A stretch of DNA of 64,000 nucleotides from Methanoculleus sp. 7T (GCF_023195915.1 NZ_JALPRP010000001.1:1054001-1118000), one strand, 5' to 3'; counted from the stretch's first letter, positions 3,779-23,120 are shown. Numbers and translations: made by a program. Notes: generated from the letters alone by a model not told the origin.

Positions 3779-5905
3779 GTGTACATCTCTTCCCTCCATG
3801 TCCGGAACTTCCGTTCCATCCGGGACGAAGCCCTCCCCTGCGACCGGCTGACCGCCCTCATCGGTGCAAACGGTGCCGGAAAATCATCTTTTTTACATGC
3901 CCTCGATCTCTTCTACCGGCCGGGAGCCCCCTATACCACAGAAGATTTCTATAATCAGGACGCATCCAAAGAGATCGTCATCGCCGTCACCTTTGCAGGC
4001 TTGAGCGACGAAGAGAAAGAACTCTTCAGGAAATATATTGAGGGCGACACCCTCACCGTGGAGAAAGTGATGGCATGGCCGGCTTCCCGCGGCAGCCAGA
4101 AATACCACGGAAGCCGACTTAAGAACCCGGATTTCGAGGCTTTCCGCAGCGCGAGTGGTGCCGTTGAACTCAGAAGAACCTACAACCAGTTGCGAGACGG
4201 CACCTATCCTGATCTCCCGCCATATTCAAACAAAGACGCCGCCGAAGCAGCCCTGCAGGAGCTGGAGGAAGCCCACCCTGAGCGATGTACCCGACAGAGA
4301 GACGAAGGGCAGTTCTTCGGGTTCAAGGAAGTCGGAGAAGCGCACCTCGAACGGTTCACTCGGTTCATATATGTCCCGCCGGTTCGTGAGGCCGCAAAGG
4401 ACGCCACCGACGGAAAGAACTCGGTCATGTCAGAACTGATGGACCTCGTCGTCAGGAAGGCCCTCATGAGCAGAGAAGACCTCCAGACACTGCAGAGGGA
4501 GGTGCAGGGGCGATACGATGAGATCTTCGATCCCGAGCATCTACCGGAACTGACGTCGCTTGGTGACCAACTCACCCGGACACTCGGGCAATATGCTCCG
4601 GGCACCAGTGTCTCGATAGACTGGTCGAGGGGGCAGGAGATCGCGATCCCGATGCCTGAGGGCAGGGTCAAGCTTATTGAAGACGACTACCCCGCGCCTG
4701 TCGAGGAGGCCATCCCAAAACGCCTCTGCCGGGAGGGGGACACCCCCTCCCGGTCCCTCCCCCGCGTGGCGATAGCCAATGGGAAGCCGTTTCAGCAATT
4801 TGATACAGGAAAGCGTTCAATTTGTTATGAGCGCTCGTAATTGCATTCTGAACCCAGTGAATCTTCAACCATGTGGCACTTTTGGGACGACTTCGAGAAT
4901 ACCGGCCATGGATTACAGCGCGCATTTATCATCACGCTCCTGCAGCACCTGGCTCTGGTACAGGCTGGAGCCGATGAAGAAACACCCGCCGCTACTCCTG
5001 AAAGGGGACAAAATATTATTCTCGGCATTGAAGAACCGGAACTCTATCAGCACCCGAACCGGCAGCGACACCTCTCGTCGATCCTGGAGCAACTCTGCTC
5101 AGGAGGGATTGGAGCGACCAGCTCGGTTCAGGTAATCTACACAACCCACTCACCGTTGTTCGTCGACATCGGCCACTTTGAGCGGATAAAAATTGTGCGA
5201 AAGGTTCAGATGTCTCCCGATCAGCCTAAGGAGACCATAATAACATCGACGACTCCCGAAGCGGTCCAGAGTGCCCTGAACGAGGTTGATGGAGGGAAGA
5301 GGAATCCCCCTACAGCCCGTTCCCTTGAGTCCAAGCTTAGAACTGTCATGACACCCATGGTCAACGAGGGCTTTTTCTCAGACGTTGTTGTTCTAGTCGA
5401 AGGAGAGGAGGACCGAGCTGCCCTGGTTGGCGTCGCAAGGGCGATGAAAGTTAATCTGAATTCTTGCGGCATTTCGGTCATTCCCTGCAATGGAAAAGAT
5501 TCCCTCCCAAAAGTGGGGACAGTATTCAAACATCTTGAGATACCCCTGTATGTCGTGTGGGACAGTGACAAGGACAAAAACGCTGCAACAAGTATTACGA
5601 CTAACCACAAGTTGCTCAGGTTATGTGGCCAGCCCGAGGATGACTGGCCAGAGGGGGTATTTGATCAGTATGCCTGCTTTGGAAACAACCTCACCGAAAC
5701 TCTTCGTCGTGATCTGGGAGAGGAATTCTACGATAGGACCCTTGCTGAAATCCAGCACGAATTTGGCTTGGATAGTCGGAACAACGCCAGGAAAAACCCA
5801 TTGGTTGTCGCTGAACTGATTAGCAAAGCAAAGGAGAACAGCATCACGTCCTCTATTATCGAGGAGACTGTTAATCGGATTGTGGTCCTCAGGGACTCAG
5901 GTTGA
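3779..5905 (+). pseudogene. OLD-family ATP-dependent endonuclease, interrupted by an in-frame insertion
   Basis: The two open frames 3779-4840 and 4841-5905 are the halves of one OLD (overcoming lysogenisation defect) protein, an AAA-like ATPase plus TOPRIM nuclease. Part one (GTG start) has Walker A GANGAGKS and VRNFRSIRDE. Part two has the signature-like GHGLQRAF, Walker B ILGIEEPELYQHP, the H-loop YTTHSP and the TOPRIM residues VLVEGEEDRAAL and VWDSDKDK. A 192-base insertion just before GHGLQR keeps the frame but brings one TAA at 4838-4840. All other catalytic motifs survive, so the break looks recent. OLD proteins commonly act in phage defence. Without the insert the protein would be about 645 residues. 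Confidence 0.8.
4706..4892. mobile_element. MITE-like insertion in the OLD gene
   Basis: About 187 bases flanked by the direct repeat TCGAG (4701-4705 and 4893-4897), the likely target duplication. The ends carry imperfect inverted repeats sharing TCCCAAAA (left 4712-4720, right read inward from 4889). Inside is a perfect 11-bp stem with a 3-base loop, CCGGGAGGGGG/CCCCCTCCCGG, near 4730-4754. No transposase is encoded. Insert plus duplication is 192 bases, exactly 64 codons. The boundaries are read from protein continuity (PVE before, NTGHGLQR after) and could shift by a few bases. Confidence 0.6.
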
Positions 5906-7130: not shown

Positions 7131-7188
7131 GACCCTGTTCGATATCGATAAAACCGGCTGACCACGATTGGCGATGAAAACCTCCGGT

Positions 7189-7736
7189 TTACTCATCCAT
7201 CTCCACTTCAAGAACGCGCCGGTAGAGGGCATCCTGGATCCAGAAGTTCCCCTCTTCCCGCAGTCGATCCATCTCCTCCACAAGGGAAGAGATCGCTCCT
7301 TCACGCTTCGCCTGAATCAGCAGCCCGATGATACCGGTGACTGGAAGGCCGTAGAGCCCCGCGACGCGACGCCCCTCGGCCTCGTCGAGGAGGAGCACAT
7401 CGGGCCGGATCTCGAGAGCAAGGGTGATGCTCTCCGCTTCGCCTCACGGCAAATTGGAGATTTGCCTGACAGGGAACTGTTCACAGTTCCCGTGGCGTGA
7501 AGTTCCTGCTCAAGCAGGCGTACCAGAGCCTTATCGGAGGGGTCGACCACACGCAGCCACCCCGACTCGTGTGCATCCCTGATCTCGGCCGCCCCCGGCC
7601 GGTTGCCGCCCAGTTCCACGACCTCTCTCCAGACCGCAGGAGGAATACATACGGTCGAAAAACGGCGAAGGAGACCAATGCGGCCGACCATCGAGAGGTG
7701 AATCAGCGGCGATGAGTTACTGACCGCGAGCGGCAT
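7189..7736 (-). pseudogene. DUF3368 PIN-like toxin, split by a double-hairpin element
   Basis: ATG 7736 opens MPLAVSNSSPLIHLSMVGRI, the N-terminus of DUF3368 (COG2405) proteins with its NSSPLI acidic-site region, and continues through IPPAVWREVVELG to LVRLLEQELH. Element C then shifts the frame. The protein resumes as EAESITLALEIRPDVLLLD, EAEGRRVAGLYGLPVTG and IIGLLIQAKREGAI and ends near VLEVEMDE at 7189. DUF3368 proteins are VapC-like nucleases paired with UPF0175 antitoxins, and the UPF0175 gene lies directly upstream, overlapping by 20 bases. As it stands the toxin should be inactive. Confidence 0.75.
7444..7500. repeat. cloverleaf-like double-hairpin element C
   Basis: A 57-bp unit inside the DUF3368 gene with outer stem TCACG/CGTGA, hairpin one GGCAAAT/ATTTGCC (TGGAG loop) and hairpin two GGGAACTG/CAGTTCCC (TTCA loop). 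Size and layout match elements A and B although the stem sequences differ, which means structure rather than sequence is conserved. It breaks the frame between LEQELH and EAESITLA. Confidence 0.65.
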
Positions 7737-7977
7737 AGGCAATGTCCTGGTCAAGGTCCTCCTCGGAGTAGTGCCGGGGAATCTTCCGCGACCCGAGCAG
7801 TTCCTCCCACTCCCACCGGTTCATCCCGGCAAGAGCGGCCGCCTTACCCGAAGAGAGGATACCCCGCTGGTAGAGCGCCACGGCAAGCTCTCGCTGCAGC
7901 TCGGTCTGAACGGCATCGGGAGGGAGTCGAAGCGCCTGAACGATATCCTGGGGAACCCTGATGGTAACATCGGACAT
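7717..7977 (-). CDS. UPF0175 family antitoxin
   Basis: 86 residues starting MSDVTIRVPQDIVQALRLP, with a ribosome site CAGGTGA upstream of ATG 7977. The longer frame to 8064 adds residues unlike the family. UPF0175 proteins have a helical DNA-binding region, here ELAVALYQRGILSSGKAAAL followed by AGMNRWEWEELLGSR, in which the SSGKAAALAGM helix-turn-helix is typical. The C-terminus HYSEEDLDQDIAYA is the usual acidic tail that blocks the partner toxin. Its partner, the DUF3368 gene, is broken, so this antitoxin may be an orphan now. Confidence 0.8.
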   Translation of the reverse strand: MSDVTIRVPQDIVQALRLPPDAVQTELQRELAVALYQRGILSSGKAAALAGMNRWEWEELLGSRKIPRHYSEEDLDQDIAYAARGQ

Positions 7978-8519
7978 AACCAGTTCACCTGATGAATAGA
8001 AGATAGAGAGGGAGAACTGATAAACGTGGTGGTGATATGTCCGCTGTTCTTGACGAAGGATCACATGCCCAATCCGATTTTAGACCCTCCGATTACCGTC
8101 ACCGCACTGGACTAAAGCAGGGACTATCCCCCTGCTCTTTTTTAAGATGGATTCACTCGTTGGATGACCGGCAGCTCATCCATCGGAAGTCTTGAGTCGG
8201 AACACTCCTTTCCGGCCGATACGACGGTGACCCGCCGCTGACCGAGACCGGGGAAAAGCGTTCACCCTGACGGGGAGACTGCGGCGATATGCACTCAATC
8301 CGTCATTGCGGACAATCCCGGATAGAAACCTGACTGAGGGAGAAGGGTAAAACCTGTATCCTACGGGCAAAACTGCCAAAAATTAAAGGATCTGGCACTG
8401 AACCCGGTAACAGTATCCGGACAATTGCGGACAGCCGGCATATGGCGGTCGTACTCCCCTTTCACTTTCAGCCCGCACACACCTCGCATTTAACAACCCC
8501 CTCTTCTCCAGAGTGACAT
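7978..8519. other. intergenic between UPF0175 and orc1/cdc6
   Basis: No convincing gene. At 8085-8110 the sequence resembles the 3' end of the 6591 gene (TVTALD-stop against AVASLD-stop) and is followed by a similar hairpin, which suggests a decayed copy of that gene's tail. Further right lie two copies of ATTGCGGACA (8305-8314 and 8424-8433) and an AT-rich patch near 8380, possible initiator-binding sites before the replication gene. Confidence 0.4.
8116..8143 (+). terminator. strong hairpin with T-run
   Basis: AGCAGGG (8116-8122) pairs with CCCTGCT (8130-8136), followed by TTTTTT at 8138-8143. No intact plus-strand gene precedes it; it matches a leftover tail of a copy of the 6591 gene. 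Confidence 0.6.
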
Positions 8520-9650
8520 ATGACGCACTCTTCCCTCCTCCGCTCCGACGAGACTCTTTTTCGGGATCCGGAGGTATTTGAGTCCACGTTCGTTCCGGAG
8601 CAGGTCCACTACCGCGACGCCCAGGTCCGGGAACTCGCCTTCCTTCTCCGGCCAGCCCTCCGGGGCGGGAGCGCGGGGAGCGCCATCCTCCGCGGTCAGC
8701 CGGGAACCGGGAAGACCACCACCGTCCGCCGGATCTTTGCCGAGGTTACCGAGACCACGAAGAAGGTCGTCCCGGTCTACGTCAACTGCCGCCACGACCG
8801 CACAGCGCTTGCAGTCTTCGGGTGCATCTTCGAACAGGCCTTCGGCTACGCACCGCCGTCGCGCCACCTCGACGGGATCAAGCGGGGGATCGCCGCCCGG
8901 CTCCGGGACCGCGATGCCGCACTCGTCGTCTGCCTCGACGACGCAAACGAGCTCATCCCGGCCGGGACCTATAACACCCTCCTCTACCAGATCCTCCGGC
9001 TCTACGAGCGGTGGGATGTCCGGAAGCCCGGGGTCTTCGCGGTCGCAAGCGACCTCGGCCTCAACCTCTACGCGGAGGCCGACGAGAGTGTCCGGTCGGT
9101 CTTCCACCCGACCGAGGTCAACTTCCCGCCCTACACGAAAGCCGAGGTCCGGGGGATCCTCGCCGACCGCATCCGGCAGGGCCTCTACCCGGGGGTGGTC
9201 TCAACGTCCCTCCTCGACCGTATCGCGGGAATCGCCGCCGACGAACAGGACATCCGGGTCGGGATCGACCTCGTCCGGCTCGCGGTCCTCCGGGCGGAGA
9301 AGGATGGGCGCAGAAGGGTCGCACCCGCCGACGTGACGGCAGCAGCGCAGGCGGTCAGGTCGCCGGCGCTCCGGGCCCGGGTTGCAGGGCTCTCGGAGGG
9401 TGAACGGGCGCTGCTCTACCGGATCGCGGAACTGTCGGTTGCGGGCACCGATATGATAGGGGGAGCTGTCTTTGAGGAGGTGCAGGACTACCTCCCGGTC
9501 GGGAAGACGGCCTATCACGAGCACCTCAACGGGCTTGCGAGGGCCGGGATCGTCGATCTCGTGCCCGGGGCGGGCCGAGGACGGGAGGTGCGGCTCCGGT
9601 ACGACCCGGGGGAGGTGCTCGCCGTCTGCAAACCCCCGGACAGAAGGTGA
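8520..9650 (+). CDS. Orc1/Cdc6-family replication initiator
   Basis: A 376-residue AAA+ protein of the archaeal Orc1/Cdc6 family that binds origins and loads MCM. Residues 1-45 (HYRDAQVRELAFLLRPAL) match the N-terminal lead. Walker A is GQPGTGKTTT near 60, Walker B is VVCLDDANEL near 145, where the usual acidic pair is kept as DD but the next position is Ala-Asn rather than the common E/D. Sensor and lid segments follow, then a C-terminal winged helix (GGAVFEEVQDYLPVGK, AYHEHLNGLARAGIVD). ATG 8520 begins right after ACAT with no strong ribosome site. It is shorter and more divergent than a main Orc1, so it may be an accessory paralogue. Confidence 0.85.
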   Translation: MTHSSLLRSDETLFRDPEVFESTFVPEQVHYRDAQVRELAFLLRPALRGGSAGSAILRGQPGTGKTTTVRRIFAEVTETTKKVVPVYVNCRHDRTALAVFGCIFEQAFGYAPPSRHLDGIKRGIAARLRDRDAALVVCLDDANELIPAGTYNTLLYQILRLYERWDVRKPGVFAVASDLGLNLYAEADESVRSVFHPTEVNFPPYTKAEVRGILADRIRQGLYPGVVSTSLLDRIAGIAADEQDIRVGIDLVRLAVLRAEKDGRRRVAPADVTAAAQAVRSPALRARVAGLSEGERALLYRIAELSVAGTDMIGGAVFEEVQDYLPVGKTAYHEHLNGLARAGIVDLVPGAGRGREVRLRYDPGEVLAVCKPPDRR

Positions 9651-9730
9651 GTTTTTACAAACCCGGATTCTCTCCGGGATCTGATATTCCTTCCCGATTC
9701 TTCGATTTTGTGATCGGCCCGTAAAGCAAC

Positions 9731-9738
9731 GCTTATAT
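9731..9738 (+). promoter_or_regulatory. TATA box for the 9844 gene
   Basis: GCTTATAT at 9731-9738. A start about 25 bases later leaves an 80-base leader containing the hairpin CCGGGAT/ATCCCGG (9810-9825), which ends six bases before the ribosome site GAGGTAAAG. Confidence 0.4.
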
Positions 9739-9843
9739 GGGGTCGGCTGCTTTTTCCGGGATATTTGGCGCACCCTTTTAACCGGCGGCTCCCGACGATG
9801 GTGTATGCGCCGGGATGAATCCCGGTGTGTGAGGTAAAGAACC

Positions 9844-10116
9844 ATGCAACGCGACAACAAACCCCCCGACAGGGGAGGAACCGAACCGAAAACCAGCGGC
9901 GGCAGCCCGGACCAGAAGTGTGACCGCACCGTCGGCCAGGCCGCCACTGGTATATCTTCACCGGAAGAGATAAACGTCTCCCCGGTGCCGCTCTTCCTCG
10001 TCCCGCGAGCGGTCGCCGATGAGATCCGGCGGCACGGGAGAGCGGTGCGGGAGATCAACGTCAGAAGGACCAGGAATCACCAGTACGCTATCAGCGTCGA
10101 GCGGGGGCGGCCATGA
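9844..10116 (+). CDS. hypothetical protein, 90 residues
   Basis: ATG 9844 follows the ribosome site GAGGTAAAG. The first 40 residues are polar and low-complexity (KPPDRGGTEPKTSGGSPDQK), the rest forms a small compact segment (VSPVPLFLVPRAVADEIRRH then GRAVREINVRRT) that could be a swapped-hairpin or small DNA-binding fold. I do not recognise the family. It follows Orc1/Cdc6 with its own TATA box and a leader hairpin, which supports it being a real gene. Confidence 0.5.
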   Translation: MQRDNKPPDRGGTEPKTSGGSPDQKCDRTVGQAATGISSPEEINVSPVPLFLVPRAVADEIRRHGRAVREINVRRTRNHQYAISVERGRP

Positions 10117-10600
10117 CCTGAGCGGCAATAAAGCTGGCCCTCTGGACACAAAGCGAAGGGACAGGGTTATCAAAAAGACTGTCACCCTGCTCATGAGAAG
10201 ATCTATTCCGGATGCCAGCCGGTTTGCGGGGGCATTCTCAACCACCATAGTTACCCGGGCAAAGCAGAAGACGACCAGGCCCCCCCACCCTTAGCGGTCA
10301 ACCTGTCCATCGAGAACAGACAGCGAGGATCACACCGTGACCTGCCGACGCAGAGTTTCACCGGCAAGAGCAACTTCGGGGTAATTCTGCAGAAATTGCT
10401 ATCAATCCATCGGAATACCATGACCTAAATTTTAGGTGAGGCCTACGTTTTAAGGATGGACCCTAACCCCATATTGCGCCGGATAGAAGGGTTGATGCGC
10501 ACAAGGTGGTGACAATTCCGCTACAGTAATCTAGGAGAACAGGATTGCAGCGCGATGATGACGAGGGTTATAACGGCTTTGGGGGGTAGCGTAACGAAAG
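10117..10600. other. intergenic, decayed sequence before the IS
   Basis: Nearly 500 bases with no supportable gene. Base composition falls from GC-rich to balanced. A 15-bp palindrome ACCTAAA-T-TTTAGGT sits at 10423-10437 with no gene beside it. The stretch looks like eroded accessory DNA. Confidence 0.4.
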
Positions 10601-10661
10601 TTCTGTAAAATTGAATTGGCCCTGGATCCAACCTAGATTTGGACAAAGGAGAAACAGGGCC

Positions 10662-11821
10662 ATGGATCCCTTAGCGTTAATCGAAGATTATCTTTCCGAT
10701 CAGGAGAACGGCATGAAGACGCTCATCACCTGGTTCCTCAACCAGGTGATGCTCGCAGAGGCCCTCCAGCAGGCAGGAGCCGCCCAGTACGAACGCACCG
10801 ATGCGCGGAAAGCGCATCGAAACGGTTACAAGGACCGATCCCTCAAGACCCGATACGGGGAGACGATCCTCCGGAAACCGCAGTTTCGGGAGTTCCCGTT
10901 CGAGACACAGGTCTTTGGACGGTATGCCCGGGTGGAGAAGGCTCTGGTGAATGCAATCGTCGAATCCTACCTCTAGGGACGTTAGTCGAGAAAATCTCCG
11001 ATTTTCGCTGCGTCTCAACGAGGAGAGTCCAGGAGATCGTCAGTCATCTGGGGATCGATCAGCTCTCTCCGGCTTCGGTCTCCCGGATGGCCAAGGACCT
11101 CGACGATCAGGTGCAGGCATTCCTCCTGCGGCCGATCGAACAGGCTATCTCGTATCTCTTCGTGGATGCTTCCTACTACAAAATCCGGGACGGAGCACGG
11201 TACGTCACCAAGGCGGTCCTGGTGGTCGCCGGAGTGCGCGAGGATGGTTACCGGGAGATCTTGGGCGCGAGAGTCACCGACTGTGAGAATGAAGAATTCT
11301 GGTCGGGACTCTTCGAGGACCTCAAAGAACGAGGACTTGCCGGGGTTCAACTGGTCATCTCGGATGGGCATACCGGCATCCAGAAGGCGGCTGAAGCCGC
11401 CTTCCTCGGTGCATCCTGGCAGATGTGTCAGGTTCATTGTACCCGAGCCGTCTTGAGGAATATTCCTCGGAAACACCAGAAAGAGGTTGTAGAAGGCCTG
11501 AAGGAGGCCTATGGAAGTGAACAAAGGCTTCAAGATCTCGCCGATGACCTGAATGCCAGGGGGTACCGGAAAGCAGCCAATACCATCGAACGGTTCCTCC
11601 CGGGGTTGATGAGTTACACGGCATTCCCAAAACAGCACGGGAAACGGATCCGAACCACAAACCTGATGGAACGGGTCAATAAGGAGCTAAAACGAAGGAC
11701 CAAGGTCGTAGGAGCGTTCCCGAACGAGGAATCCCTTCTCCGGCTGGTCGGATCCATCCTGATGGACATCAACGAGGAGTGGGTCACCGGCAGAAGGTAT
11801 TTGACCATGGAGAAGGAATGA
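10662..11821 (+). pseudogene. IS256-family transposase, broken by a hairpin insertion
   Basis: ATG 10662 starts MDPLALIEDYLSDQ and runs to ALVNAIVESYL, then TAG at 10974. The rest continues in another frame from 11012 as VSTRRVQEIVSHLGIDQLSP to 11821. The catalytic DDE parts are present: YLFVDASYYKIRDG, QLVISDGHTGI and the NTIERFLPG helix, with RTTNLMERVNKELKRRTKV near the end, all typical of IS256 (Mutator-like) enzymes. The 38-base join carries a hairpin absent from the family. A full product would be about 385 residues; as written it is inactive unless frameshifted. Confidence 0.8.
10974..11011. repeat. short hairpin insertion (element E)
   Basis: A single stem GAAAATC/GATTTTC with a TCC loop (about 10989-11006) in a 38-base segment that replaces about two codons of the transposase. 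The core AAATCTCCRATTT is shared with the first hairpin of element C read on the other strand, which links the two insertions. Confidence 0.5.
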
Positions 11822-12120
11822 TCAAGCAAGGAGACAGGGCTCAGGCAAATTACAGAAGATCTGAGACGTTACCCTTTGGGGAGAGGGGGACACCTCACGT
11901 TGAAATCACGCAATTTATTAATTCGCGCTAGAAAATGTATAAGACGGAACAATGGGAGTATCGACTCCGCAAAGAAAATGAGCATGGTGGTGAGAGAGGT
12001 TTGTGAGCACTGGGGGTTTGGGAGACCAGACCATTCGATAGTGGTTTTATCAGTATTCAAGGATAATTCAGAGATGATCCACGATTTCCAGGCCTTTTGA
12101 GATAAGTTCAAGGTAATACT

Positions 12121-13455
12121 ATGATCCCCAGCGATTTATTTCGATCAAACATTAGTTATCTGGAGGCGAAAATCCCGAAACCATATCGTGAGATCTGTTT
12201 TTGGGTTTTGATTGCGTTGCTCATCAGGTTACTCTTTTTGCCTTTCGCATGCCATGCCGATCTTTTAAGCACATATTATCGCTCAAATCTCCTGATGACC
12301 GGAGAAATATCGATATTCTTTGGACTTAACGAGTTATCGGTATATTTTCAGGCTTTAACCCTTTTTATTTTTCAAGCATGGATTCCAAGAATCATTTGGT
12401 CTCCGGATTGGGGTTCACCGATAGGGTTTGGAACGGCTAGTGTGGTTGATTGGATGGAATTTGTCTCATTTGAGACTGTATTCCAATACATTACGATATT
12501 CAAGATGCCTTACCTGATCTTCGATTTGCTTTGCGTGGTATTACTGTATTACATCTTTCACGAAAATGAAGAGAGTAGGGTTATCGCCTTGTCTGCCTGG
12601 GTCGCTTGTCCGGTGCTGATATATGCGGCCTATATTTTCTCTCGATATGAAACAATTGCATTCTTTTTCATTCTGCTGAGTTTATTTTGCGTAAAGATTA
12701 GAAAAAATCGATTCGCCGTTTTTGCGTTAGGTACTGCAGTACTTATCCGGATGTACCCGCTCATGCTCCTTCCGTTCTATGTAGTAATACTTGAAGAAGA
12801 TCTGCATGAACGAATAAAATTAGCAACCATAGGTGTAATCCCGCTTATTATCTCATATATAAGTAAAAGAATAACTATTCAACCGATTTTCGTCTCATCG
12901 ACTGTGTTTGATCCTGTAAATAGTTTCAGTCGCCATTTGTTGGAGTTACGTATCGGAGATATCTCTCTATTTCTCATATCTTACCTTCTGATATTGGGTA
13001 TTTCGGTGTATTATATACGCCATAACCGAAAAGAAACAGGCGAATTTGAAGCGCTGGTATCATTTGGTTTACTATTGCTCATATCGATGTACCTCTTCGC
13101 ACCATACATGGCGATAAAAACGTCATGGTTTTCATGGATTCTTCCATTTTTAATAGTCTGGGTTGCATTGGATCGAACGGAAGATGGAAGAAAAGCTTAT
13201 TTACTGTTAATCGCCTCCTGGATCATATTAATGTTAATTAGGATCGATCCAAGTCAATTTGGTGGAGGGTTGTTTGCCCCGGCAAATTTCGCATTGATCG
13301 ATCTGCCAAACTTTGGGAACGTAATATCCTCAATAACAGGATACCCTGCATCAATACTCAAGACACTAGTTGTAACACTGTTCTCCGCGGCCCTTATCTG
13401 GACCATGTCAATTGTAACCTTAAGGTTATTTAAAAAATGGAGCGGGCCAGAATGA
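12121..13455 (+). CDS. GT-C type polyprenyl-phosphate glycosyltransferase, putative
   Basis: A 444-residue protein with about ten membrane helices. The first luminal loop after helix one holds HADLLSTYYRSNLLMTGE, and SRYETIAFFFILLSLF plus VLIRMYPLMLLPFYV follow, the pattern of GT87/PIG-M-like mannosyltransferases in which a Q/R-x-E/D-x-I/L motif precedes a helix. Such enzymes move a sugar from a polyprenyl-phosphate carrier on the outer face of the membrane. Its stop overlaps the start of the next gene (ATGA), so the two form a unit. Codon use is AT-rich, unlike the core, which points to transfer. The sugar is unknown. Confidence 0.65.
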   Translation: MIPSDLFRSNISYLEAKIPKPYREICFWVLIALLIRLLFLPFACHADLLSTYYRSNLLMTGEISIFFGLNELSVYFQALTLFIFQAWIPRIIWSPDWGSPIGFGTASVVDWMEFVSFETVFQYITIFKMPYLIFDLLCVVLLYYIFHENEESRVIALSAWVACPVLIYAAYIFSRYETIAFFFILLSLFCVKIRKNRFAVFALGTAVLIRMYPLMLLPFYVVILEEDLHERIKLATIGVIPLIISYISKRITIQPIFVSSTVFDPVNSFSRHLLELRIGDISLFLISYLLILGISVYYIRHNRKETGEFEALVSFGLLLLISMYLFAPYMAIKTSWFSWILPFLIVWVALDRTEDGRKAYLLLIASWIILMLIRIDPSQFGGGLFAPANFALIDLPNFGNVISSITGYPASILKTLVVTLFSAALIWTMSIVTLRLFKKWSGPE

Positions 13456-14114
13456 CAAACAAATTGATGTCTCACCAACTGCTTCTCCTAATAGCTATGC
13501 TTTGTGGAATGGTGCTGGTACCTATGGTCTATTCGTGGGGAACGAATATTATCGTATCAGATGGAGGGATCATCCGCAACGAAGACACTGTTGGAGGACT
13601 CTACGGATCAACTACGTCCGGGCAATCATTTTCCGCAGCATATGACAATTTATATAGAATCGATATCCGTTTTGCAACCTATGCACGAGAGAATACCAAC
13701 ACTATAGATGTCTCTATCTTAGAGAAACAAAATACTACAGTTGTACGTCATATAACAATAGATGCACGTAATCTGAAAGATTGCGATCTTCATCCAATAG
13801 AGTTCGATCCAATCCCAACTTCACGAGGAAAAGAATACTTGATATCGTTAAAATCAATCGATGCATCTCCCACCAATACCATAACCATATGGTATAGTGG
13901 CAATGATGCCTATGCTGAGGGGACGAGATACCATAACGGGGAGCCTGCCGAAGGCGATCTTTGCTTTGTCCCGTACTACCAACTGAGCATCGTTGAAGCA
14001 ATAGCATATTTTATGCAAAAAATCACCTGCCATTGGCTTTTCTTCACATTCTATGCAATAGTAGCTTTTGCCACTCTCTATGGAGTAATCGTGCTAAGAG
14101 AGACGTTGAAATGA
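13452..14114 (+). CDS. membrane protein with an exported beta-sandwich domain
   Basis: 220 residues from ATG 13452 (ATGA overlap with the GT-C gene; an upstream in-frame ATG at 13437 is less likely). An N-terminal hydrophobic helix (QLLLLIAMLCGMVLVPMV) and a C-terminal one (LFFTFYAIVAFATLYGVIVL) bracket an exported domain of about 150 residues. That domain contains DPIPTSRGKEYLISLKS and ITIWYSGND, the same pattern as residues 480-585 of the large glycosyltransferase encoded at 14285, so it is probably a shared carbohydrate-binding fold. A role as partner of the GT-C transferase is inferred from the tight coupling. Confidence 0.6.
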   Translation: MTNKLMSHQLLLLIAMLCGMVLVPMVYSWGTNIIVSDGGIIRNEDTVGGLYGSTTSGQSFSAAYDNLYRIDIRFATYARENTNTIDVSILEKQNTTVVRHITIDARNLKDCDLHPIEFDPIPTSRGKEYLISLKSIDASPTNTITIWYSGNDAYAEGTRYHNGEPAEGDLCFVPYYQLSIVEAIAYFMQKITCHWLFFTFYAIVAFATLYGVIVLRETLK

Positions 14115-14284
14115 CCAGATTCGATGATATCTTGCTACATGCAAGATTTGCCGGTTCAAGAAAGGAACTCCACACAATAGATGGGGAAGGAAATCCCTTT
14201 TTAGATCTTCCCCAAAATAACTCTAAGGTCACTGAATACCGCGGCATAACTGTACATGGGGTGATCTAAAGAGCCATATTTAAG

Positions 14285-17200
14285 TCAATTTGAATGAACA
14301 TCATTACGGACGACACTATATGGAGTGTAAACATTCATATTCCCTCTCTCGATTGCCATTTCACAGAGATAACGTACGATTTCAAAATTGGAGTCGCCTC
14401 CCGGCAGTTCTCCAAGAGATAGCATGAGATCTTTGGATAGAGCAACACAATCCGGGGAAGGATACTTGCAGCTGCGTACAATGCTTAGCATACTTGGATT
14501 GAACCAGAACGAAGAATAAAGATCATTTGCCATCGGCAATTTGCCTTTCCCGGTAGAAGGCCATCGTTCGAATCCGGCATGTACAATTCCTCCAAATCGA
14601 TTGACTGTCTTGCCACCCACAACGCCGACACCATTGCATAAAGCATGTTCGATAAGAGATAGATACCAATCGGAACAGTTAACCATAACATGACCCCCCA
14701 TAAAAATGAGAACTGTGCCTTTTACAGGAGTATTTTGCCCCTCGATTATTGAGGAAACTGAAGTAATTCTCCGATCAACACAATGTACAAATTTGGCACC
14801 TTTTGAGAGATGTCTTTTAAGAGCACTGCATGTCTGATCATCCGGACAGAGCGCTACGATATCGTATTCCCTCCCAACAGTATACTGCTGTATTTTATTA
14901 ATGCATTTAACAGCTTGCTGCAGGTCCTTCACAAGGATAAAAATTGAAAATGTCGCATCGCCTGAATTGTATCTTAACCGATAACTCCCTTTCCAACTTC
15001 CGAATTCAACCCTATCAACAGCAATACCCCGCCTCTTCATCGCATCGGCGATTGCCGACCGTGCCGCTTCGTAAGCATACGGTTTCGCCGAATCGGAAGA
15101 CGCGGCAGAGGTTTGAATCATCCTCCAATGATACAAAATTTTAGGGATATGGCATATCTCCTGGTCTTCAAGTAACTCTGTTACTCTCAAGAACAAGTCA
15201 TAGTCCTGTGAACCATCGTAATCGCTTCTAAAGCCCCCAACGGATTGAATAATTGAAGAATCAATGACAGTAAAATGTACCAGATAGTTGCAGGACAGAA
15301 ACGTAATTGGAGACCAATCCGGTTTAAAAAAGGGATTAACACGTCGTCCGCTTGAATCCAATTTATCCTCATCGGAGTATAATAATCTGAGATCAGGATT
15401 TCGGTTTAGAGCCTTGACTATTTCATAAATCGCAGACGAAGCTATCTCATCATCGTGATCGAGTAATCCAACGTATTCACCGGTTGCAAGTGATAGTGCC
15501 TCGTTTGAGTTGCCAGAAATACCCTTATTTTCCTCCAGGAACTTTACCTTAATTCTTGGATCCCCATGGGCATACTCTTCGAGGATAGATCTGACATGTG
15601 GCTTCTCCGAACCTCCGTCAGCAATACAGAGTTCCCAGTTGTCATAGATCTGTTCAAGAACCGACTCAATGGCACGCCGCAACCACCTCTCATCAGTATT
15701 CCATACCGGCATTACGATACTGATCTTCGGTCGATACGAAAATTTTGTGCATTCTTCCCGCATCTGCTCCAGTTGGGCCCCCGAAGGCTCGTTCTGCAGG
15801 ATCCAGAGTTCATATGGGTCCCGGATTACCTCCTTCGTAAAACACTGAAACCCAATCCGACCGTTGATCCCCTTCCCATCTCTGAAAAGCTGTAATTTCT
15901 CATGAGGTGCAGTCGGATTATACCAGACCGCAGCCGACGGAGATCCGGTCGATGCAATCTGGAAATAATACGTTTTTCCCTTGCTGTCAGGGATAGGTTT
16001 GAATCCCCACCTACTATACCCATTGTTTACGATCCTGCTCCCCTTGAGCATCACATCTCTGATTACCGGTCCCTCAAGGGAACCTTCCCTGATAGATAAC
16101 CGCAGGTTCGCATTTAGCCTACCATATGTCCAGGTAAAAACTTCAATGGCATTTAATTGATTTATTGGCGAAATAAATCGCCCATCTAATGAGATATCCA
16201 GTGCCAGTGGTACATTCCCATCATATATCTCGACAGGCACTCTCAATATCGGTCGGATAGCGCTTATCGGCATTAATGAAAATCTACCTCGCAGCCTGCT
16301 CTTCCCCCGCATCCAGAGACTTCCAGGACCCTCGTGCACAAGAATTTGCAATGAGAGGAGCCCCAGATCGTAGAAATGTCTCCGGCGCGTCCCAAGAGGC
16401 ATTAGTCGTTCAACAAGTGCATGGAACTTTGTGACCATAATCCAGGTAGTGCTGTTCTGGATTGCGGACAGAGTAGACGAAAGTTGAACGATCTCTTCAT
16501 CTTTTCTCTTTAGGTCTTCGGATAGCGGGTCAACCATCTCCTCTAGTCTCTCAATTTGTATGTTCTTTTCTTGGACCGAAGATTTGAGGCGGGCCAACTC
16601 AGCCTCATTTGATCGGGACTTCGCGCGGAGATCTTCGATGACACCCTCAAGATCACCGATATGCGCATCTTTTGCCTGAACCAGAGACCTGAGATGGGCC
16701 AACTCAGTTTCACCCGATTGATATTTCGAACGAAGATCCGCAATAATTCCTTCAAGGTTGGTGATATGGGTCTCCTTTCTCTGATTTATCCCATCAAGAG
16801 CCTTAAAAACCAGAGAGAGGAGTTCTTGATGCTTGTAAGGATCAGAGGGAGTTTCGGCCAGGATTGTGTTTATCCCGGGGACAGTTCCTTCCTTTCCAAT
16901 CAGATAAAGAGTCCGGTACGTTGGTTCCTGAAAGTCTCCCAGTTCAACAAAGTTTTCGTTGTAATAACGATATACAGCATTGACCTCATCCTCAGGGATC
17001 CCATAGAGGTACGCAGAAAAGATAAATTGTTGCAGGATGAGCCAGTGATGAAGGTTATTGGAGTTAACGAACGTGAATTCATACCCGTTTTCCTGCAGGA
17101 ATGTTTCAAATTCTAATTTTGAAGGCAGACCGTTCCTGATATGCTCCTCAAGCCAGGGATGGGGTCTCCCCGCAGAAGCAGCAAAGAAATCATTTGCTCT

Positions 17201-17590
17201 TTCTTCTGCATCCTTTGCATATTCGGAATAAAAGGGAGCTCCCAGCACTACAAAATTTTTACTCAGCCTGAGCATCTCTAGTACTGCAGTGTTCCGATCT
17301 GTTGGCGGGATGTGTTCAAATACATCCGAACTGACGACTACATCGAACGATCCAGCCTGAAAAGGGGGCGCAAAAATATTCCCATGAACATAATTGTCCT
17401 CTTCGGGAGAGGGAGGCAATACATCCAGAACAAGTACATTATCCTCTGGAAGGAAGTCACTTAATAGTCCACTTTTGCCTCCCACATCTAAAATGTTCAA
17501 AGACTCTCTGTCTCGTATTGCTGCAACAAATTCGGAGATGATAACGTTGCGCGTATAAAGGTCAAAAGGAAGGTCCCGTATATCTTTCAT
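14285..17590 (-). CDS. multidomain methyltransferase-glycosyltransferase
   Basis: 1101 residues. Domains: a SAM methyltransferase (1-235; NILDVGGKSGLLSDFLP loop, SSDVFEHIPP); a coiled coil of about 33-residue repeats (270-375; NLEGIIADLRSK, DLEGVIEDLRAK, RLEEMVDPL); the STTW segment typical of surface glycosyltransferases; a beta-sandwich (450-590; KPIPDSKGKTYYFQI, AVWYN); a GT2 domain (620-850; ISIVMPVWNTDERWL, LLDHDDE, YSDEDKLD, GSQDYDLF); and a second, weaker GT2-like domain (878-1101). The parts suggest it extends a surface polysaccharide and caps it by methylation, with the coil acting as a length ruler as in WbdA/WbdD. It lies downstream of Wzt on the same strand. The order of action is inferred. 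Confidence 0.8.
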   Translation of the reverse strand: MKDIRDLPFDLYTRNVIISEFVAAIRDRESLNILDVGGKSGLLSDFLPEDNVLVLDVLPPSPEEDNYVHGNIFAPPFQAGSFDVVVSSDVFEHIPPTDRNTAVLEMLRLSKNFVVLGAPFYSEYAKDAEERANDFFAASAGRPHPWLEEHIRNGLPSKLEFETFLQENGYEFTFVNSNNLHHWLILQQFIFSAYLYGIPEDEVNAVYRYYNENFVELGDFQEPTYRTLYLIGKEGTVPGINTILAETPSDPYKHQELLSLVFKALDGINQRKETHITNLEGIIADLRSKYQSGETELAHLRSLVQAKDAHIGDLEGVIEDLRAKSRSNEAELARLKSSVQEKNIQIERLEEMVDPLSEDLKRKDEEIVQLSSTLSAIQNSTTWIMVTKFHALVERLMPLGTRRRHFYDLGLLSLQILVHEGPGSLWMRGKSRLRGRFSLMPISAIRPILRVPVEIYDGNVPLALDISLDGRFISPINQLNAIEVFTWTYGRLNANLRLSIREGSLEGPVIRDVMLKGSRIVNNGYSRWGFKPIPDSKGKTYYFQIASTGSPSAAVWYNPTAPHEKLQLFRDGKGINGRIGFQCFTKEVIRDPYELWILQNEPSGAQLEQMREECTKFSYRPKISIVMPVWNTDERWLRRAIESVLEQIYDNWELCIADGGSEKPHVRSILEEYAHGDPRIKVKFLEENKGISGNSNEALSLATGEYVGLLDHDDEIASSAIYEIVKALNRNPDLRLLYSDEDKLDSSGRRVNPFFKPDWSPITFLSCNYLVHFTVIDSSIIQSVGGFRSDYDGSQDYDLFLRVTELLEDQEICHIPKILYHWRMIQTSAASSDSAKPYAYEAARSAIADAMKRRGIAVDRVEFGSWKGSYRLRYNSGDATFSIFILVKDLQQAVKCINKIQQYTVGREYDIVALCPDDQTCSALKRHLSKGAKFVHCVDRRITSVSSIIEGQNTPVKGTVLIFMGGHVMVNCSDWYLSLIEHALCNGVGVVGGKTVNRFGGIVHAGFERWPSTGKGKLPMANDLYSSFWFNPSMLSIVRSCKYPSPDCVALSKDLMLSLGELPGGDSNFEIVRYLCEMAIERGNMNVYTPYSVVRNDVHSN

Positions 17591-17662: not shown

Positions 17663-18415
17663 TCATCCCGTAGTAGCCGAAGGCTCAAGATAATCATGAA
17701 TAACGTTATCCGTCGCGCCGAGTGATATCGCTTTCCCGCCCTGTAACAGCATACACCGCTCGCACAGCTCCTGCACCGTCCCGAGGGCGTGCGAAACGAT
17801 GATGATCGTCTTCCCCTCGCGCCGGATCTCCTCGATCTTCGCGCTGCACTTGCGCTGGAAGGCCTCGTCACCGACGGCAAGCACCTCGTCGACTAGGAGG
17901 ATGTCGGGGTCGGTCTGGACCGCTGTAGCAAACGCAAGCCGGACCGCCATCCCCGACGAGAAGTTCTTGAGCTTCATGTTCTCGAAGCGCCGCAACTCGG
18001 AAAAGTCGAGGATCTCATCGTAGCGCTTCTCAATCTCCTTCCGGGTCAGGCCCATGATCGAGCCGTAGAGGTAGATGTTCTCCTTGGCCGTGAGGTCTGG
18101 CTGGAACCCGACCCCGAGCTCGAGGAAGGGGGCGATCTTGCCGTTCACCCGGACCGTCCCCGAGTCGGGGTAGAGCACCCCGGCGAGGATCTTTAAGAGC
18201 GTGCTCTTACCGCTCCCGTTCGGCCCGATGACCCCGAAGGTCTCCCCGCGCCGGACGGTGAAGGAGACGTCATCCAGGGCCTGGAACTGCTCGTAGGAGT
18301 ACTTCCCGCCCTTGAGGAGCCCGATGATATGCTCGTACACGGTGACCTTGCGGTCGTGGGGGATCCGGAACTCCTTGGAGAGGTGGTCGACCACGATCGC
18401 TTCTTCACTCTTCAT
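17663..18415 (-). CDS. polysaccharide ABC exporter, ATP-binding protein (Wzt-like)
   Basis: 250 residues: Walker [12 protein letters not shown], the polysaccharide-exporter Q-loop region [20 protein letters not shown], signature LKNFSSGM, Walker [19 protein letters not shown] and H-loop IIIVSHALG. The [15 protein letters not shown] lead is typical of the Wzt/TagH group. It lacks the C-terminal glycan-binding domain of O9a-type Wzt. ATG 18415 overlaps the permease stop by one base, so the pair is translationally coupled. It energises export of the rhamnose-containing polymer made by this locus. Confidence 0.9.
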
Positions 18416-19176
18416 TAGATCTCCTCCGCAAACCGGCGCTCAAGCCGACCGAAGACTAGGGCCCCTGCAACGACCATCGCGACCCCCACCCCGAGGAGGG
18501 CAAGAAGGCCCGCTAGAGATGGCGTCACCCCGTAGAGCAGGAACTCCCGGTAGGTCTCGATGAGCACGGTCATCGGGTTGAGCATGTAGTACTTGAGGAA
18601 CGCTTCCGGGATGATGCCGACCGGGTAGACGATCGGGGACAGGAAGAACCCGGCTTGGAGGACCACGTCCCAGACCTGATTTAAGTCCCGGAAGTAGACG
18701 AAGAGGGAGGCGAGGACCAAGGACGCGCCGTAGACGATCAGGAAGTAGATACCATGCACTACCGGGAAGAGGAGGATGTTTGGCGTCACCACCGCACCCA
18801 GGATGAAGAGCAGCGGGATCAGCACTGCAAACTCGAGTATGGAACTGATGAAACTCGAGAGTACAGAACTCATCACGAGGATCTGGCGCGGGATGTAGAG
18901 TTTGGTCACGAGACCCGGCCTGCCGACGATCGAGCCCATCGCTGTCATGGTCCCGTTGGCAAGGAACCGCCAGGCGATGATCCCTATCAAGAGGTAGAGC
19001 GCAAAGTTCTCCTGCTCAAACCGAAAGACGTTCATGAAGACGACGTAGAGAACCAGCATCATCAGGAGCGGGTTCAAGAGCGACCAAGCAAACCCGAGCA
19101 CCGAACTCTGGTACTTAACCTTCAGGTCGCTGATCGTAAGGTTCCAGATGAGATCTCTGTAATCAACAAGCCACAT
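18415..19176 (-). CDS. polysaccharide ABC exporter, permease (Wzm-like)
   Basis: 253 residues from ATG 19176, starting MWLVDYRDLIWNLTISDLKV. Six membrane helices and the conserved QSSVLGFAWSLLNPLLMM and FFLSPIVYPVGIIPE segments place it in the ABC-2 polyol/polysaccharide permease family. The frame stays open to 19296, but the extra residues run through the end of the upstream glycosyltransferase and do not fit the family, so 19176 is chosen; the two genes overlap by 14 bases. It forms the channel with the Wzt-like ATPase. Confidence 0.88.
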   Translation of the reverse strand: MWLVDYRDLIWNLTISDLKVKYQSSVLGFAWSLLNPLLMMLVLYVVFMNVFRFEQENFALYLLIGIIAWRFLANGTMTAMGSIVGRPGLVTKLYIPRQILVMSSVLSSFISSILEFAVLIPLLFILGAVVTPNILLFPVVHGIYFLIVYGASLVLASLFVYFRDLNQVWDVVLQAGFFLSPIVYPVGIIPEAFLKYYMLNPMTVLIETYREFLLYGVTPSLAGLLALLGVGVAMVVAGALVFGRLERRFAEEI

Positions 19177-20142: not shown

Positions 20143-20877
20143 TTACCGCCGGGCGACAGACTCCACCTGCTTCTTCCGGTGCTGCTGGACCATCATGCCT
20201 GCCCGTATCAGGCTGTCGAACGTCCCGGCATCGCTCCAGAAACCCGAGAGGACGCCGTACTCCATCTCGCCCTTCCGGACGTAGACGTTGTTCACGTCGG
20301 TGATCTCGAGTTCGCCGCGGCCGGAAGGCTTGAGGGTGCGGATGATCTTGAAGACCCGGGCGTCGTAGAGATACAGGCCCGTGACGGCAAGGTTCGACTT
20401 CGGCGCCTGCGGCTTTTCTTCGATCGAGAGGATCCGGCTGCCGTTGACTTCGGCCACCCCGAACCGCTGTGGATCCGGAACTTCCTTCAAGAAGACCTTC
20501 GCACCCCCGTCGAACGACTCGACGTCGTTCCGGAAGTCGTCCTCGAAGATGTTATCGCCGAGGATGACGGCAAGGTTATCGGTCCCGGCCCACTTCCGGG
20601 CGAGACCGAGTGCTTGGGCGATCCCCCCGGCCCCCTCCTGGATCTCGTAGGCGATGCTGACGCCGAAATCCGACCCCGAACCGAGCAGCTCAAGGAAGTG
20701 TCCCACATGGCCGCGGCCGGAGACGATCATGATCTCCTCGATACCGGCGTTGATCAACTTCTCCAGGGGATAGCAGATCATCGGTTTATCGTATACGGGC
20801 AACAGGTGCTTGTTCGTCACCTTCGTCAGCGGGTACAGGCGGGACCCGGTACCCCCGGCTAGAATTACGCCTTTCAA
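20143..20877 (-). CDS. rfbA: glucose-1-phosphate thymidylyltransferase
   Basis: 244 residues. The nucleotidyltransferase signature GVILAGGTGSRLYPLT is followed by NKHLLPVYDKPMICYPLE, AVILGDNIFEDD and VSIAYEIQEGAGGIAQAL. It makes dTDP-glucose from dTTP and glucose-1-phosphate, the first step to dTDP-L-rhamnose. It is shorter than the enterobacterial RmlA (about 290), lacking the C-terminal extension, as in many archaea and in RffH-like short forms. It overlaps rfbD by four bases and ends the rfbCBDA run. Confidence 0.92.
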   Translation of the reverse strand: MKGVILAGGTGSRLYPLTKVTNKHLLPVYDKPMICYPLEKLINAGIEEIMIVSGRGHVGHFLELLGSGSDFGVSIAYEIQEGAGGIAQALGLARKWAGTDNLAVILGDNIFEDDFRNDVESFDGGAKVFLKEVPDPQRFGVAEVNGSRILSIEEKPQAPKSNLAVTGLYLYDARVFKIIRTLKPSGRGELEITDVNNVYVRKGEMEYGVLSGFWSDAGTFDSLIRAGMMVQQHRKKQVESVARR

Positions 20878-21704
20878 TCGGATTCACCTTTCACATTCAG
20901 ATAATCAGCAAGCGCACCGCTCCAGTGCCGGAGGGGGGCTGTCTTGGTGTTCAACAGTACCGAATATGCCGGGCGCTTGGCCTTCCGCGGGAACTCTGCG
21001 CTCGAGCAGGGGGCCACGTTCTCGATGATCGCACGGGCAAACTCATACCACGAGCAGACACCGTCGTTTGTGACATGGTAGATCCCCGGCTCAAGACTGA
21101 CAATCTCCGGCGTCTTCCGGGCGAGGTCGACCGTATACGTCGGTTTCCCGACTTGGTCGTTCACCACCCGGACCTGGTCCATCTGCCCGGAGAGGTGGAG
21201 CATAGTCTCGACGAAGTTCCTCCCGTGCGCCCCAAAGAGCCAGGACGTGCGGATGATCCGGTAGTCGTCCGTATTTTCCGCAATATTTTGCTCCCCGAGG
21301 AGTTTGGAAGCCCCGTAGATGTTGATGGGGTTCGGTACGTCGGATTCAACATACTCCTTCTTTGAGCCGTCAAAGATGTAGTCAGTGCTGTAGTGGACGA
21401 GCGTGGCCCCGACGTCGGAGCAGGCAGACGCGATATGCCCGAGCGCCTCCCCGTTGACGGCGAACGCCAGATCCCGGTTATCCTCGCACCCGTCGACGTC
21501 GGTATAGGCCGCGGCGTTGACGACCAGGTCGGGAGAGAGGTCGCGGATGCACGCAGAAACTGCCCGCTCGTCGGTGATATCCAGTTCATGGCCGCGGAGG
21601 ACCGCTCCGGGAAAGACCGCCTGCAGGTCGTGACCAAGCATCCCATATGCGCCGAGGATGAGGACCTTCCGGGGGTTTACTGCTTTAATGGCCGCCACCA
21701 CCAC
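20874..21704 (-). CDS. rfbD: dTDP-4-dehydrorhamnose reductase
   Basis: 276 residues with KVLILGAYGMLGHDL for NADPH binding, the catalytic YxxxK of the SDR fold in NIYGASKLLGE, and VVNAAAYTDVDGCED typical of RmlD. It reduces dTDP-4-dehydro-L-rhamnose to dTDP-L-rhamnose. The start is a GTG within a run of GTG codons (21704, 21701, 21698) overlapping the end of rfbB; which is used cannot be decided by eye. Its stop overlaps rfbA. Confidence 0.92.
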   Translation of the reverse strand: MVVAAIKAVNPRKVLILGAYGMLGHDLQAVFPGAVLRGHELDITDERAVSACIRDLSPDLVVNAAAYTDVDGCEDNRDLAFAVNGEALGHIASACSDVGATLVHYSTDYIFDGSKKEYVESDVPNPINIYGASKLLGEQNIAENTDDYRIIRTSWLFGAHGRNFVETMLHLSGQMDQVRVVNDQVGKPTYTVDLARKTPEIVSLEPGIYHVTNDGVCSWYEFARAIIENVAPCSSAEFPRKAKRPAYSVLLNTKTAPLRHWSGALADYLNVKGESD

Positions 21705-22651
21705 GTATTCTCAACATACCATTCGACAGTCGCCTGTAAGGCGGTTCCGAAATCGAACTCCGGCTTCCAGCCCATCGTCCGGAGCTTCGAGGAGTCCAGC
21801 GAGTAACGCCAGTCGTGCCCGGGGCGGTCGCGCACGTACTCGATCATCGACTCATCCTTTCCAAGGGCCCCGAGGATCCCTTCGGTGATCTCGAGGTTAC
21901 TCTTCTCGTTGTCGCCGCCGATGTTGTAGATCTCGCCCGGCTCCCCGTGACGGAGGACGAAATCGATCGCCCGGCAGTGGTCAAGTACGTAGATCCAGTC
22001 ACGGACGTTTTTGCCGGTGCCGTAGACAGGGACCTTCTTCCCGTCCAGGAGGTTGGTGGTAAAGAGCGGGATGAGTTTCTCGGGGTACTGGTAGGGTCCG
22101 AAGTTGTTCGTGCAGCGGGTGACGACGACGGGGAGATCGTGGGTGATATAGTATGACCGTGCAAGAAGGTCGGAGGCCGCCTTGCTCGCCGAGTAGGGGC
22201 TCGAAGGGTTCAGGTTGTCCGTCTCCCGGAAGGACCCGGACCGGATGCTCCCGTAGACCTCATCAGTCGAGACGTGGACGAACCGCTCAACACCGTGGCT
22301 CAGCGCCCCCTCAAGCAACACGTGAGTTCCGAGGACGTTTGTCCTGACAAAGACGGAGGCGTCGTGTATCGACCGATCAACGTGGCTTTCCGCCGCGAAG
22401 TGGACGACGGCGTCGATCCGGTGTTCCCGGAAGACGGAACCGACAACATCCGGGTCACAGATGTCGCCCCTGATGAACGTATACCGCGGGTCTCCGGCAA
22501 GATCCTTCAGGTTTTCCGGATTTCCCGCATACGTAACTTTATCCAGGTTTACAATGGAGTCGTCGGGATGCTCCTCAAGCATCTGCCTGATGAAGTTGCT
22601 CCCGATGAACCCAAGCCCGCCCGTAACAAGGAGTCGCACACTATCACCCAT
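21677..22651 (-). CDS. rfbB: dTDP-glucose 4,6-dehydratase
   Basis: 324 residues: NAD-binding VTGGLGFIGSNFIRQML, the active-site HVSTDEVYGS, YSASKAASDLLARSY with the catalytic Tyr-Lys pair, and TRCTNNFGPYQYPEKLIPLF. It converts dTDP-glucose to dTDP-4-dehydro-6-deoxyglucose. The start overlaps the end of rfbC by eight bases, consistent with one operon. The C-terminus is ENTWWWRPLKQ. Confidence 0.94.
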   Translation of the reverse strand: MGDSVRLLVTGGLGFIGSNFIRQMLEEHPDDSIVNLDKVTYAGNPENLKDLAGDPRYTFIRGDICDPDVVGSVFREHRIDAVVHFAAESHVDRSIHDASVFVRTNVLGTHVLLEGALSHGVERFVHVSTDEVYGSIRSGSFRETDNLNPSSPYSASKAASDLLARSYYITHDLPVVVTRCTNNFGPYQYPEKLIPLFTTNLLDGKKVPVYGTGKNVRDWIYVLDHCRAIDFVLRHGEPGEIYNIGGDNEKSNLEITEGILGALGKDESMIEYVRDRPGHDWRYSLDSSKLRTMGWKPEFDFGTALQATVEWYVENTWWWRPLKQ

Positions 22652-23120
22652 GTTTCAGCCCGGGAGCAAGGCCCCAGTCGTAGGGGATCTCACTCGTATC
22701 AGGTGGAAGCCGGAATTCGTCCGGGTCTTCGTAGTTGTATGGCAGGGTTGGGACGCTCACGAAGAACGCGGTCTCGGTGCCGATGCCCTTGAACCCGTGA
22801 TAGACGCCGGGGGGAACGCTGATGAGGATTGGGTTCTTCTCCCCGACGAAGAACTCCATGAGGTTTCCCCGGGTGGGCGAGTCCTCCCGTGCATCGTAGA
22901 GCGCGACCTTCATCATGCCATGGACACAGGTGAAGTTATCGGTCTGCTTTTTATGGTAGTGCCAAGCTTTCACAACCCCGGGATACGCCGTCGTGCAGTA
23001 GACCTGCCCGAACTTCTCGAAAATGGCGTCGTCACACCGGAGGATCTCCATGAGCCACCCGCGCTCATCCGGAATGAGACGTAAGTTTTTAATAGCCACC
23101 CCGTCGATGGTCGCATTCAT
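22644..23120 (-). CDS. rfbC: dTDP-4-dehydrorhamnose 3,5-epimerase family protein
   Basis: 158 residues of the RmlC cupin fold: PDERGWLMEILRCDD, TTAYPGVVKAWHYHKKQTDN with the catalytic His region, KVALYDAREDSPT and PPGVYHGFKGIG. It is the first gene of the rfbCBDA run. It is shorter than the classic RmlC (about 180) and of the type found in archaeal and sugar-epimerase clusters. A TATA box lies 27 bases upstream of the ATG. Confidence 0.85.
   Translation of the reverse strand: MNATIDGVAIKNLRLIPDERGWLMEILRCDDAIFEKFGQVYCTTAYPGVVKAWHYHKKQTDNFTCVHGMMKVALYDAREDSPTRGNLMEFFVGEKNPILISVPPGVYHGFKGIGTETAFFVSVPTLPYNYEDPDEFRLPPDTSEIPYDWGLAPGLKHG

Follow-up and report, generated by a model that had tools for sequence, protein, structure and literature searches.

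The window analysed here is a 64,000-nucleotide stretch of the genome of the archaeon Methanoculleus sp. 7T (NZ_JALPRP010000001.1, positions 1054001-1118000). It contains a polysaccharide locus in which a small membrane protein, P0001, and the large glycosyltransferase encoded next to it, P0002, each carry a copy of the same domain. An initial annotation had proposed that these copies represent a glycan-recognition module used on both sides of the membrane. The genes concerned lie next to a membrane glycosyltransferase gene and are laid out as follows, in window coordinates (labels such as L022 denote the loci compared with the window).

12121-13455, plus strand: polytopic membrane glycosyltransferase of the GT-C type (GT87/PIG-M-like), 444 amino acids, at least eight transmembrane (TM) segments; partner gene of the exported domain copy
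13452-14114, plus strand: P0001, small TM-domain-TM protein, 220 amino acids; AlphaFold mean predicted local distance difference test score (pLDDT) 84.3
13590-13985, plus strand: exported domain copy, P0001 residues ~47-178, placed by profile matches; strands at 44-176, pLDDT mostly >88
14285-17590, minus strand: P0002, 1101 amino acids, consisting of methyltransferase, coiled coil, domain, GT2 and degenerate GT2
16871-17590, minus strand: N-terminal methyltransferase of P0002, residues ~1-240 (Methyltransf_11, E = 6e-7)
16448-16807, minus strand: coiled-coil stretch of P0002, residues ~262-381, with profile matches to coiled-coil families (SMC, crescentin) alone
15791-16213, minus strand: cytosolic domain copy, P0002 residues ~460-600, placed by BLASTP, profiles and model
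15101-15733, minus strand: first GT2 of P0002, residues ~620-830, DHDDE motif intact (PF00535, E = 2e-30)
14288-15025, minus strand: second GT2 region of P0002, degenerate, residues 856-1101, from alignment with L022 and L023

Two homologous copies of one domain

The motifs that the initial annotation had seen in both proteins are indeed present, with PIPTSRGKEYLISLKS in P0001 corresponding to PIPDSKGKTYYFQIAS in P0002, ITIWY to AAVWY, NG to DG, and CFVPYY to GFQCFT. Pairwise BLASTP aligns the two proteins over 114 residues with 25% identity (E = 2e-6), and the score of 35.0 bits compares with a best score of 24.3 among 2000 shuffles of the P0002 segment. When the P0001 domain is compared with the open reading frames (ORFs) of at least 100 amino acids in the window, the next-best match after P0002 reaches only E = 5. 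A profile of exported-type copies, from which the P0002 type was left out, finds P0002 with E = 1.6e-15, while a profile of the cytosolic archaeal glycosyltransferase (GT) copies finds P0001 with E = 6.4e-12 (database size set to 2500). The profile-profile comparison that had been suggested gives an hhalign probability of 99.2 and E = 2.6e-19 between the exported and cytosolic sets. Genome-wide, P0001 and P0002 are the only copies found at E ≤ 10. At the level of sequence, the two segments are confirmed as homologous members of one family.

The opposite placement of the two copies, one between two membrane helices and the other in a cytosolic glycosyltransferase, had also been described, and the predictions agree with it. 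In P0001, the domain is predicted to stand between helices 3-31 and 180-219, each of which holds one hydrophobic segment (10-28 and 196-214; TM segments were assigned throughout with a simple hydropathy window), and the archaeal orthologues of P0002 have no predicted TM segment. The P0001 domain would lie on the outer face of the membrane.

Distribution and predicted fold of the family

The domain is ~125-145 residues long and is present in other archaea, Chloroflexota, Planctomycetota, Woesebacteria and other bacteria. The search of further archaeal loci that had been suggested was made with a two-sequence profile, which detects it in five further archaeal genomes from the sample of the phylum. 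Scanning the genome collection with a degenerate DNA pattern for the FxPxxDSxGKxYxFxxxS stretch returned 13 loci, ten of which match the domain profile strongly (E from 2e-15 to 5e-31) and one, L030, more weakly; L037 and L040 do not match, and the genome of L040 has no profile match to the domain elsewhere either. A 15-row profile (A3) finds the domain in 9 of 295 genomes of the window's phylum, three of them marginal (threshold 1e-3), in 51 of 251 genomes of the phylum of L031, a Chloroflexota record (threshold 1e-3), and in 5 of 149 genomes of the phylum of a Planctomycetota record (threshold 1e-5), three counts that are not directly comparable because the thresholds differ. With P0001 alone as the query, the window's genome is the only positive one among 40 of its own family.

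The domain family has no substantial match in Pfam, NCBIfam, PHROG or the PDB sequences, and neither the P0001 nor the P0002 segment itself matches Pfam or NCBIfam; matches to the PrgX PDB sequence (E = 0.27) were taken as chance. No domain match was found in the plasmid collection by tblastn, nor any relative of the domain in the viral contigs with the A1 profile. Two viral-contig pattern matches were attributed to chance after inspection, the best profile E being 7e-4. The C-terminal domain of some Wzt exporter ATPases, Wzt_C (PF14524), was considered as a member of the same family and rejected: no member of the domain family matches it at E ≤ 1, and the domain profile also misses the Wzt of L077, which bears Wzt_C. 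By sequence, the domain belongs to none of the carbohydrate-binding module (CBM) families with a Pfam model or a solved structure. Its carriers are carbohydrate-active enzymes, with GT2, GT4, GT-C, YfhO and methyltransferase architectures. In L144, a soluble protein of 1171 amino acids (7144-10659, plus strand) has two copies of the domain and adjoins a soluble protein with one. A conserved domain thus lies outside the searched libraries, yet recurs in glycan enzymes across several phyla.

The AlphaFold model of P0001, built from a 10-row alignment without the P0002 sequence, is a beta-sandwich between two long helices. The model of the P0002 segment, built from a 5-row alignment without the P0001 sequence, is weak (mean pLDDT 56, core blocks 65-86), with its strands in the same order as in P0001; the alignments behind the two models share some rows, which makes the predictions partly dependent on each other. 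The top structural match is also the same for both, the phage phi812 baseplate protein 9euj_G, with Z = 16.2 for P0001 (19% identity) and Z = 9.0 for P0002, so that the like fold on which the initial annotation depended is recovered, weakly on the P0002 side. For the P0001 model (residues 33-178, window positions 13548-13985), the baseplate Z-score stands well above those of CBMs. Further matches include the lectin-like domain of Cwp84 (Z = 11.7), the CBM BT0996-C (Z = 9.7), CBM-bearing xylan esterases (Z = 8-9) and CBM15, CBM6 and CBM35 (Z ~7.2-7.5), and the independent beta-sandwich of P0001 resembles lectin and CBM structures with Z = 7-12 over 100-140 residues. BcsB is among the Foldseek matches (E ~4e-3), and neither Wzt nor EmbC is among the matches listed. 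The likeness to the phi812 baseplate (PDB 9euj chain G) and to Clostridioides Cwp84, which are virion and surface-protease proteins, is one of fold, and like fold alone says nothing on like function. Judged from the models, the domain is a conserved, unnamed, CBM-like accessory family, whose members may bind sugar.

Gene settings of the exported and cytosolic copies

The ATG of P0001 overlaps the stop codon of the GT-C gene by 4 nucleotides (ATGA, 13452-13455). The window's GT-C protein has no Pfam match of its own and aligns with a protein of the Chloroflexota locus L076 (3173-4468; 29% identity over 416 amino acids, E = 1e-40) that has weak GT87 and PIG-M Pfam matches. In L076, this GT-C gene is likewise followed by a homologous TM-domain-TM gene (E = 8e-23), again with a 4-nucleotide overlap. 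When joined in silico, the window's GT-C protein and P0001 align along a single ORF of L024 (E = 2e-34), and L081/L141 encode GT-C-domain fusions. The domain is therefore found attached to a multi-TM GT-C protein in L024 and L081/L141, and encoded together with one in the split pairs of the window and L076. A TM-domain-TM gene stands directly after a multi-TM gene in seven cases (window, L076, L087, L089, L122, L034 and L129), which amount to about five independent ones because L087, L089 and L034 are close relatives; the exceptions are L124, where the two are one gene apart, and L127, which lacks this neighbour order. The GT-C-like protein beside the TM-domain-TM gene of L122 (7825-9732, minus strand) has a weak, below-cutoff CBM_4_9 match at residues 293-406. 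In bacteria, many exported copies are preceded by an N-terminal hydrophobic signal, lipoprotein-like or other (in several homologues the domain comes immediately after a lipoprotein-type signal), or form part of YfhO/DUF6541-type membrane proteins. These arrangements offer a testable link between small TM-domain-TM proteins and GT-C partners.

On the cytosolic side, the orthologues in L022, L023 and L025 keep the domain order of P0002 with two GT2 domains. The methyltransferase region of P0002 is 34-57% identical to those of L022, L023, L024, L077 and L141; its second GT2 lacks the C-terminal end and has GGH where the relatives in L022 and L023 have an NND-type motif. No part of P0002 was recognised as a kinase domain. 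Other cytosolic copies occur in GT4, GT2-GT4, methyltransferase-GT4 or methyltransferase proteins, all cytosolic copies being in glycosyltransferase or methyltransferase proteins. The genes neighbouring P0002 encode an ATP-binding cassette (ABC) exporter and sugar enzymes.

17663-18415, minus strand: Wzt-like ATPase, 250 amino acids, without Wzt_C domain (ABC_tran, E = 1e-24; no PF14524 match)
18415-19146, minus strand (start uncertain; ORF to 19296): Wzm-like transmembrane component (ABC2_membrane, E = 1e-15)
20143-23120, minus strand: rml-type (deoxythymidine diphosphate-rhamnose) sugar genes, read from translations only

In both the window and L022, the P0002-type gene comes after rml-type genes (rmlD- and rmlC-like in L022), two glycosyltransferases, Wzm and Wzt. 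Wzm and/or Wzt genes adjoin the cytosolic copies of the window, L022, L027, L075, L077, L088 and L141; in L027, L088 and L141 they were identified from motifs and translations alone. The L141 locus combines the GT-C-domain protein, Wzm, Wzt and a methyltransferase-domain protein whose methyltransferase is homologous to that of P0002 (E = 3e-37). A rule by which the module is present where Wzt_C is absent was rejected, as the L077 Wzt has Wzt_C and the L141 Wzt has a similar C-terminal extension by eye.

The G+C content is 39-49% across 12.1-17.6 kb; the neighbouring rml, wzm and wzt genes, like most of the window as far as 40 kb, have ~60%, and the flanks of the stretch 12001-17500 have ~55-60%. 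This drop, together with the patchy distribution of the domain, suggests from composition and occurrence that the GT-C, P0001 and P0002 genes (12.1-17.6 kb) are a recent acquisition. Just 5' of the low-G+C stretch, two neighbouring ORFs in different frames (10611-11821, plus strand) resemble, from translation only, a broken IS256-type transposase. Two abutting ORFs at 3779-5905 (plus strand) resemble, again from translation only, a single AAA/OLD-type ATPase with an interruption in the middle.

Possible roles and known systems

We incline, at somewhat better than even chances, to a model in which one unnamed CBM-like module would hold the acceptor for a GT-C enzyme outside and form part of a terminator/ruler-type protein inside. 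P0001 would be the split-off C-terminal part of the GT-C membrane glycosyltransferase, and its domain would most likely bind the growing or exported glycan acceptor for this enzyme at the outer face of the membrane, by analogy with EmbC, a GT-C enzyme whose C-terminal CBM is required for acceptor binding (PMC3044687). Inside, P0002 would be made beside the Wzm/Wzt exporter, and its domain, between coiled coil and GT2, would most likely hold on to the lipid-linked polysaccharide close to where it is polymerised, an arrangement of the terminator/ruler kind as in WbdD or Klebsiella pneumoniae O7 ORF6. For O antigens exported by ABC transporters, chain length is set by proteins in which a coiled coil carries a terminating enzyme at its distal end (PMC11231755; WbdD, PMC3482155). 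In P0002, a methyltransferase, which is a catalytic domain of the terminating type, occupies the N-terminus (1-240) and is followed by a coiled-coil-like stretch (262-381), and Wzm/Wzt-like exporter genes are linked to it in the window and L022; a Wzt CBM reading the terminal residue is lacking, the window's Wzt having 250 amino acids and no Wzt_C. With no kinase recognised, the simplest guess is that the methyltransferase just methylates the end of the chain.

Several observations weigh against this model. The second GT2 of P0002 is degenerate, confidence in the P0002 segment model is low, and the cytosolic loci L025, L082/L142, L083, L085 and L144 have no Wzm or Wzt in the stretch read. By Z-score, proteins of phage baseplates and giant-virus capsids come ahead of the CBMs, and conservation is highest mainly at core or turn positions (L67, F60, F118, F172, P120 and S124), which shows a common fold and not a common site. 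The last two points, and the frequent use of jelly-roll folds as scaffolds, favour a structural or protein-docking beta-sandwich that binds no sugar, linking the GT-C enzyme to partners outside and spacing or oligomerising the coiled coil and glycosyltransferase inside. Such a function is a serious possibility that we nevertheless consider doubtful: in this sample, nearly every copy belongs to a glycan enzyme or to a protein encoded beside one, many of the other structural matches have lectin or CBM folds, and similarly placed beta-sandwiches in EmbC (PMC3044687) and O7 ORF6 (PMC11231755) have been described as CBMs.

Copies inside and outside recur in one locus in the window, L022, L085, L082/L142 and L141, five paired loci that stand for four lineages because a single small bacterial group contributes both L082/L142 and L141, from two of its genomes. 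This recurrence would fit a relay in which one and the same glycan end is recognised first in the cytosol and, once exported, again outside; however, the pairing could stem from the clustering of glycan genes alone, and the two copies of a locus do not clearly resemble each other more than they resemble copies from other loci. In identity to P0002, P0001 ranks 24th of 35 exported copies; the L082 pair also ranks 24th, and the L085 and L022 pairs rank 3rd to 6th. A tree of 47 rows groups the domains by membrane side, with 3 changes against 10.8 in shuffles (0/500), and a single membrane crossing of the family is not rejected (approximately unbiased test, p-AU = 0.379). Sorting by side rather than by locus gives no sign that both copies read the same glycan, and we regard the relay as improbable. 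Duplication within the locus, of P0001 from P0002 or the reverse, might be expected for adjacent genes sharing one domain, yet it is very unlikely indeed: in the tree, P0001 stands next to an exported copy from Chloroflexota (98/89) and P0002 falls among the archaeal glycosyltransferase copies (99/95), making the two sisters costs 38.8 log-likelihood units (p-AU = 0.049, borderline), and the pair of GT-C and TM-domain-TM genes is itself shared with Chloroflexota.

From these sequence relationships, the family appears to serve both membrane sides, with no sign of a matched pair. The module proposed in the initial annotation keeps its homology, its CBM-typical fold and its recurring inside/outside pairing in polysaccharide loci; the implication that the two copies make up a single recognition unit for one glycan finds no support in the identity rank, the cost of the sister constraint or the separate tree groups. 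A wider version of our preferred model, in which one module family would act as glycan reader on both sides in ABC-exported loci of archaea and bacteria, in a terminator/polymerase inside and a chain-finishing GT-C enzyme outside, and would in the window replace the Wzt CBM, seems unlikely to us. The Wzt C-terminal CBM (Wzt_C, PF14524) is comparable as a cytosolic-side glycan reader for ABC-exported polysaccharides, but it belongs to a different sequence family; the L077 Wzt carries it, whereas the window Wzt has no match to it.

For the exported copy, the closest known system by architecture is Mycobacterium tuberculosis EmbC, also a multi-TM GT-C protein with an extracytoplasmic beta-sandwich after its membrane part. 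The EmbC CBM has been shown to bind the acceptor. In the window, the domain forms a separate small TM-domain-TM protein. For P0002, WbdD of Escherichia coli O9a (PMC3482155) similarly joins a methyltransferase and a coiled coil in one protein and works with an ABC exporter, but has a kinase and, as described, neither such a beta-sandwich nor a fused glycosyltransferase. K. pneumoniae O7 ORF6 also has a comparable layout: an N-terminal methyltransferase, a coiled coil, C-terminal GT2 modules and an immunoglobulin-like, CBM-like domain of untested function (PMC11231755), encoded in a locus with rml and wzm/wzt genes. ORF6 differs in having a kinase domain and its CBM before the coiled coil; in P0002, no kinase was recognised, the domain follows the coiled coil and the second GT2 is degenerate. 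The combination of terminator and CBM has been seen in no other terminator enzyme (PMC11231755); if P0002 does act as a terminator, archaea would have this layout too, with the module placed elsewhere in the protein.

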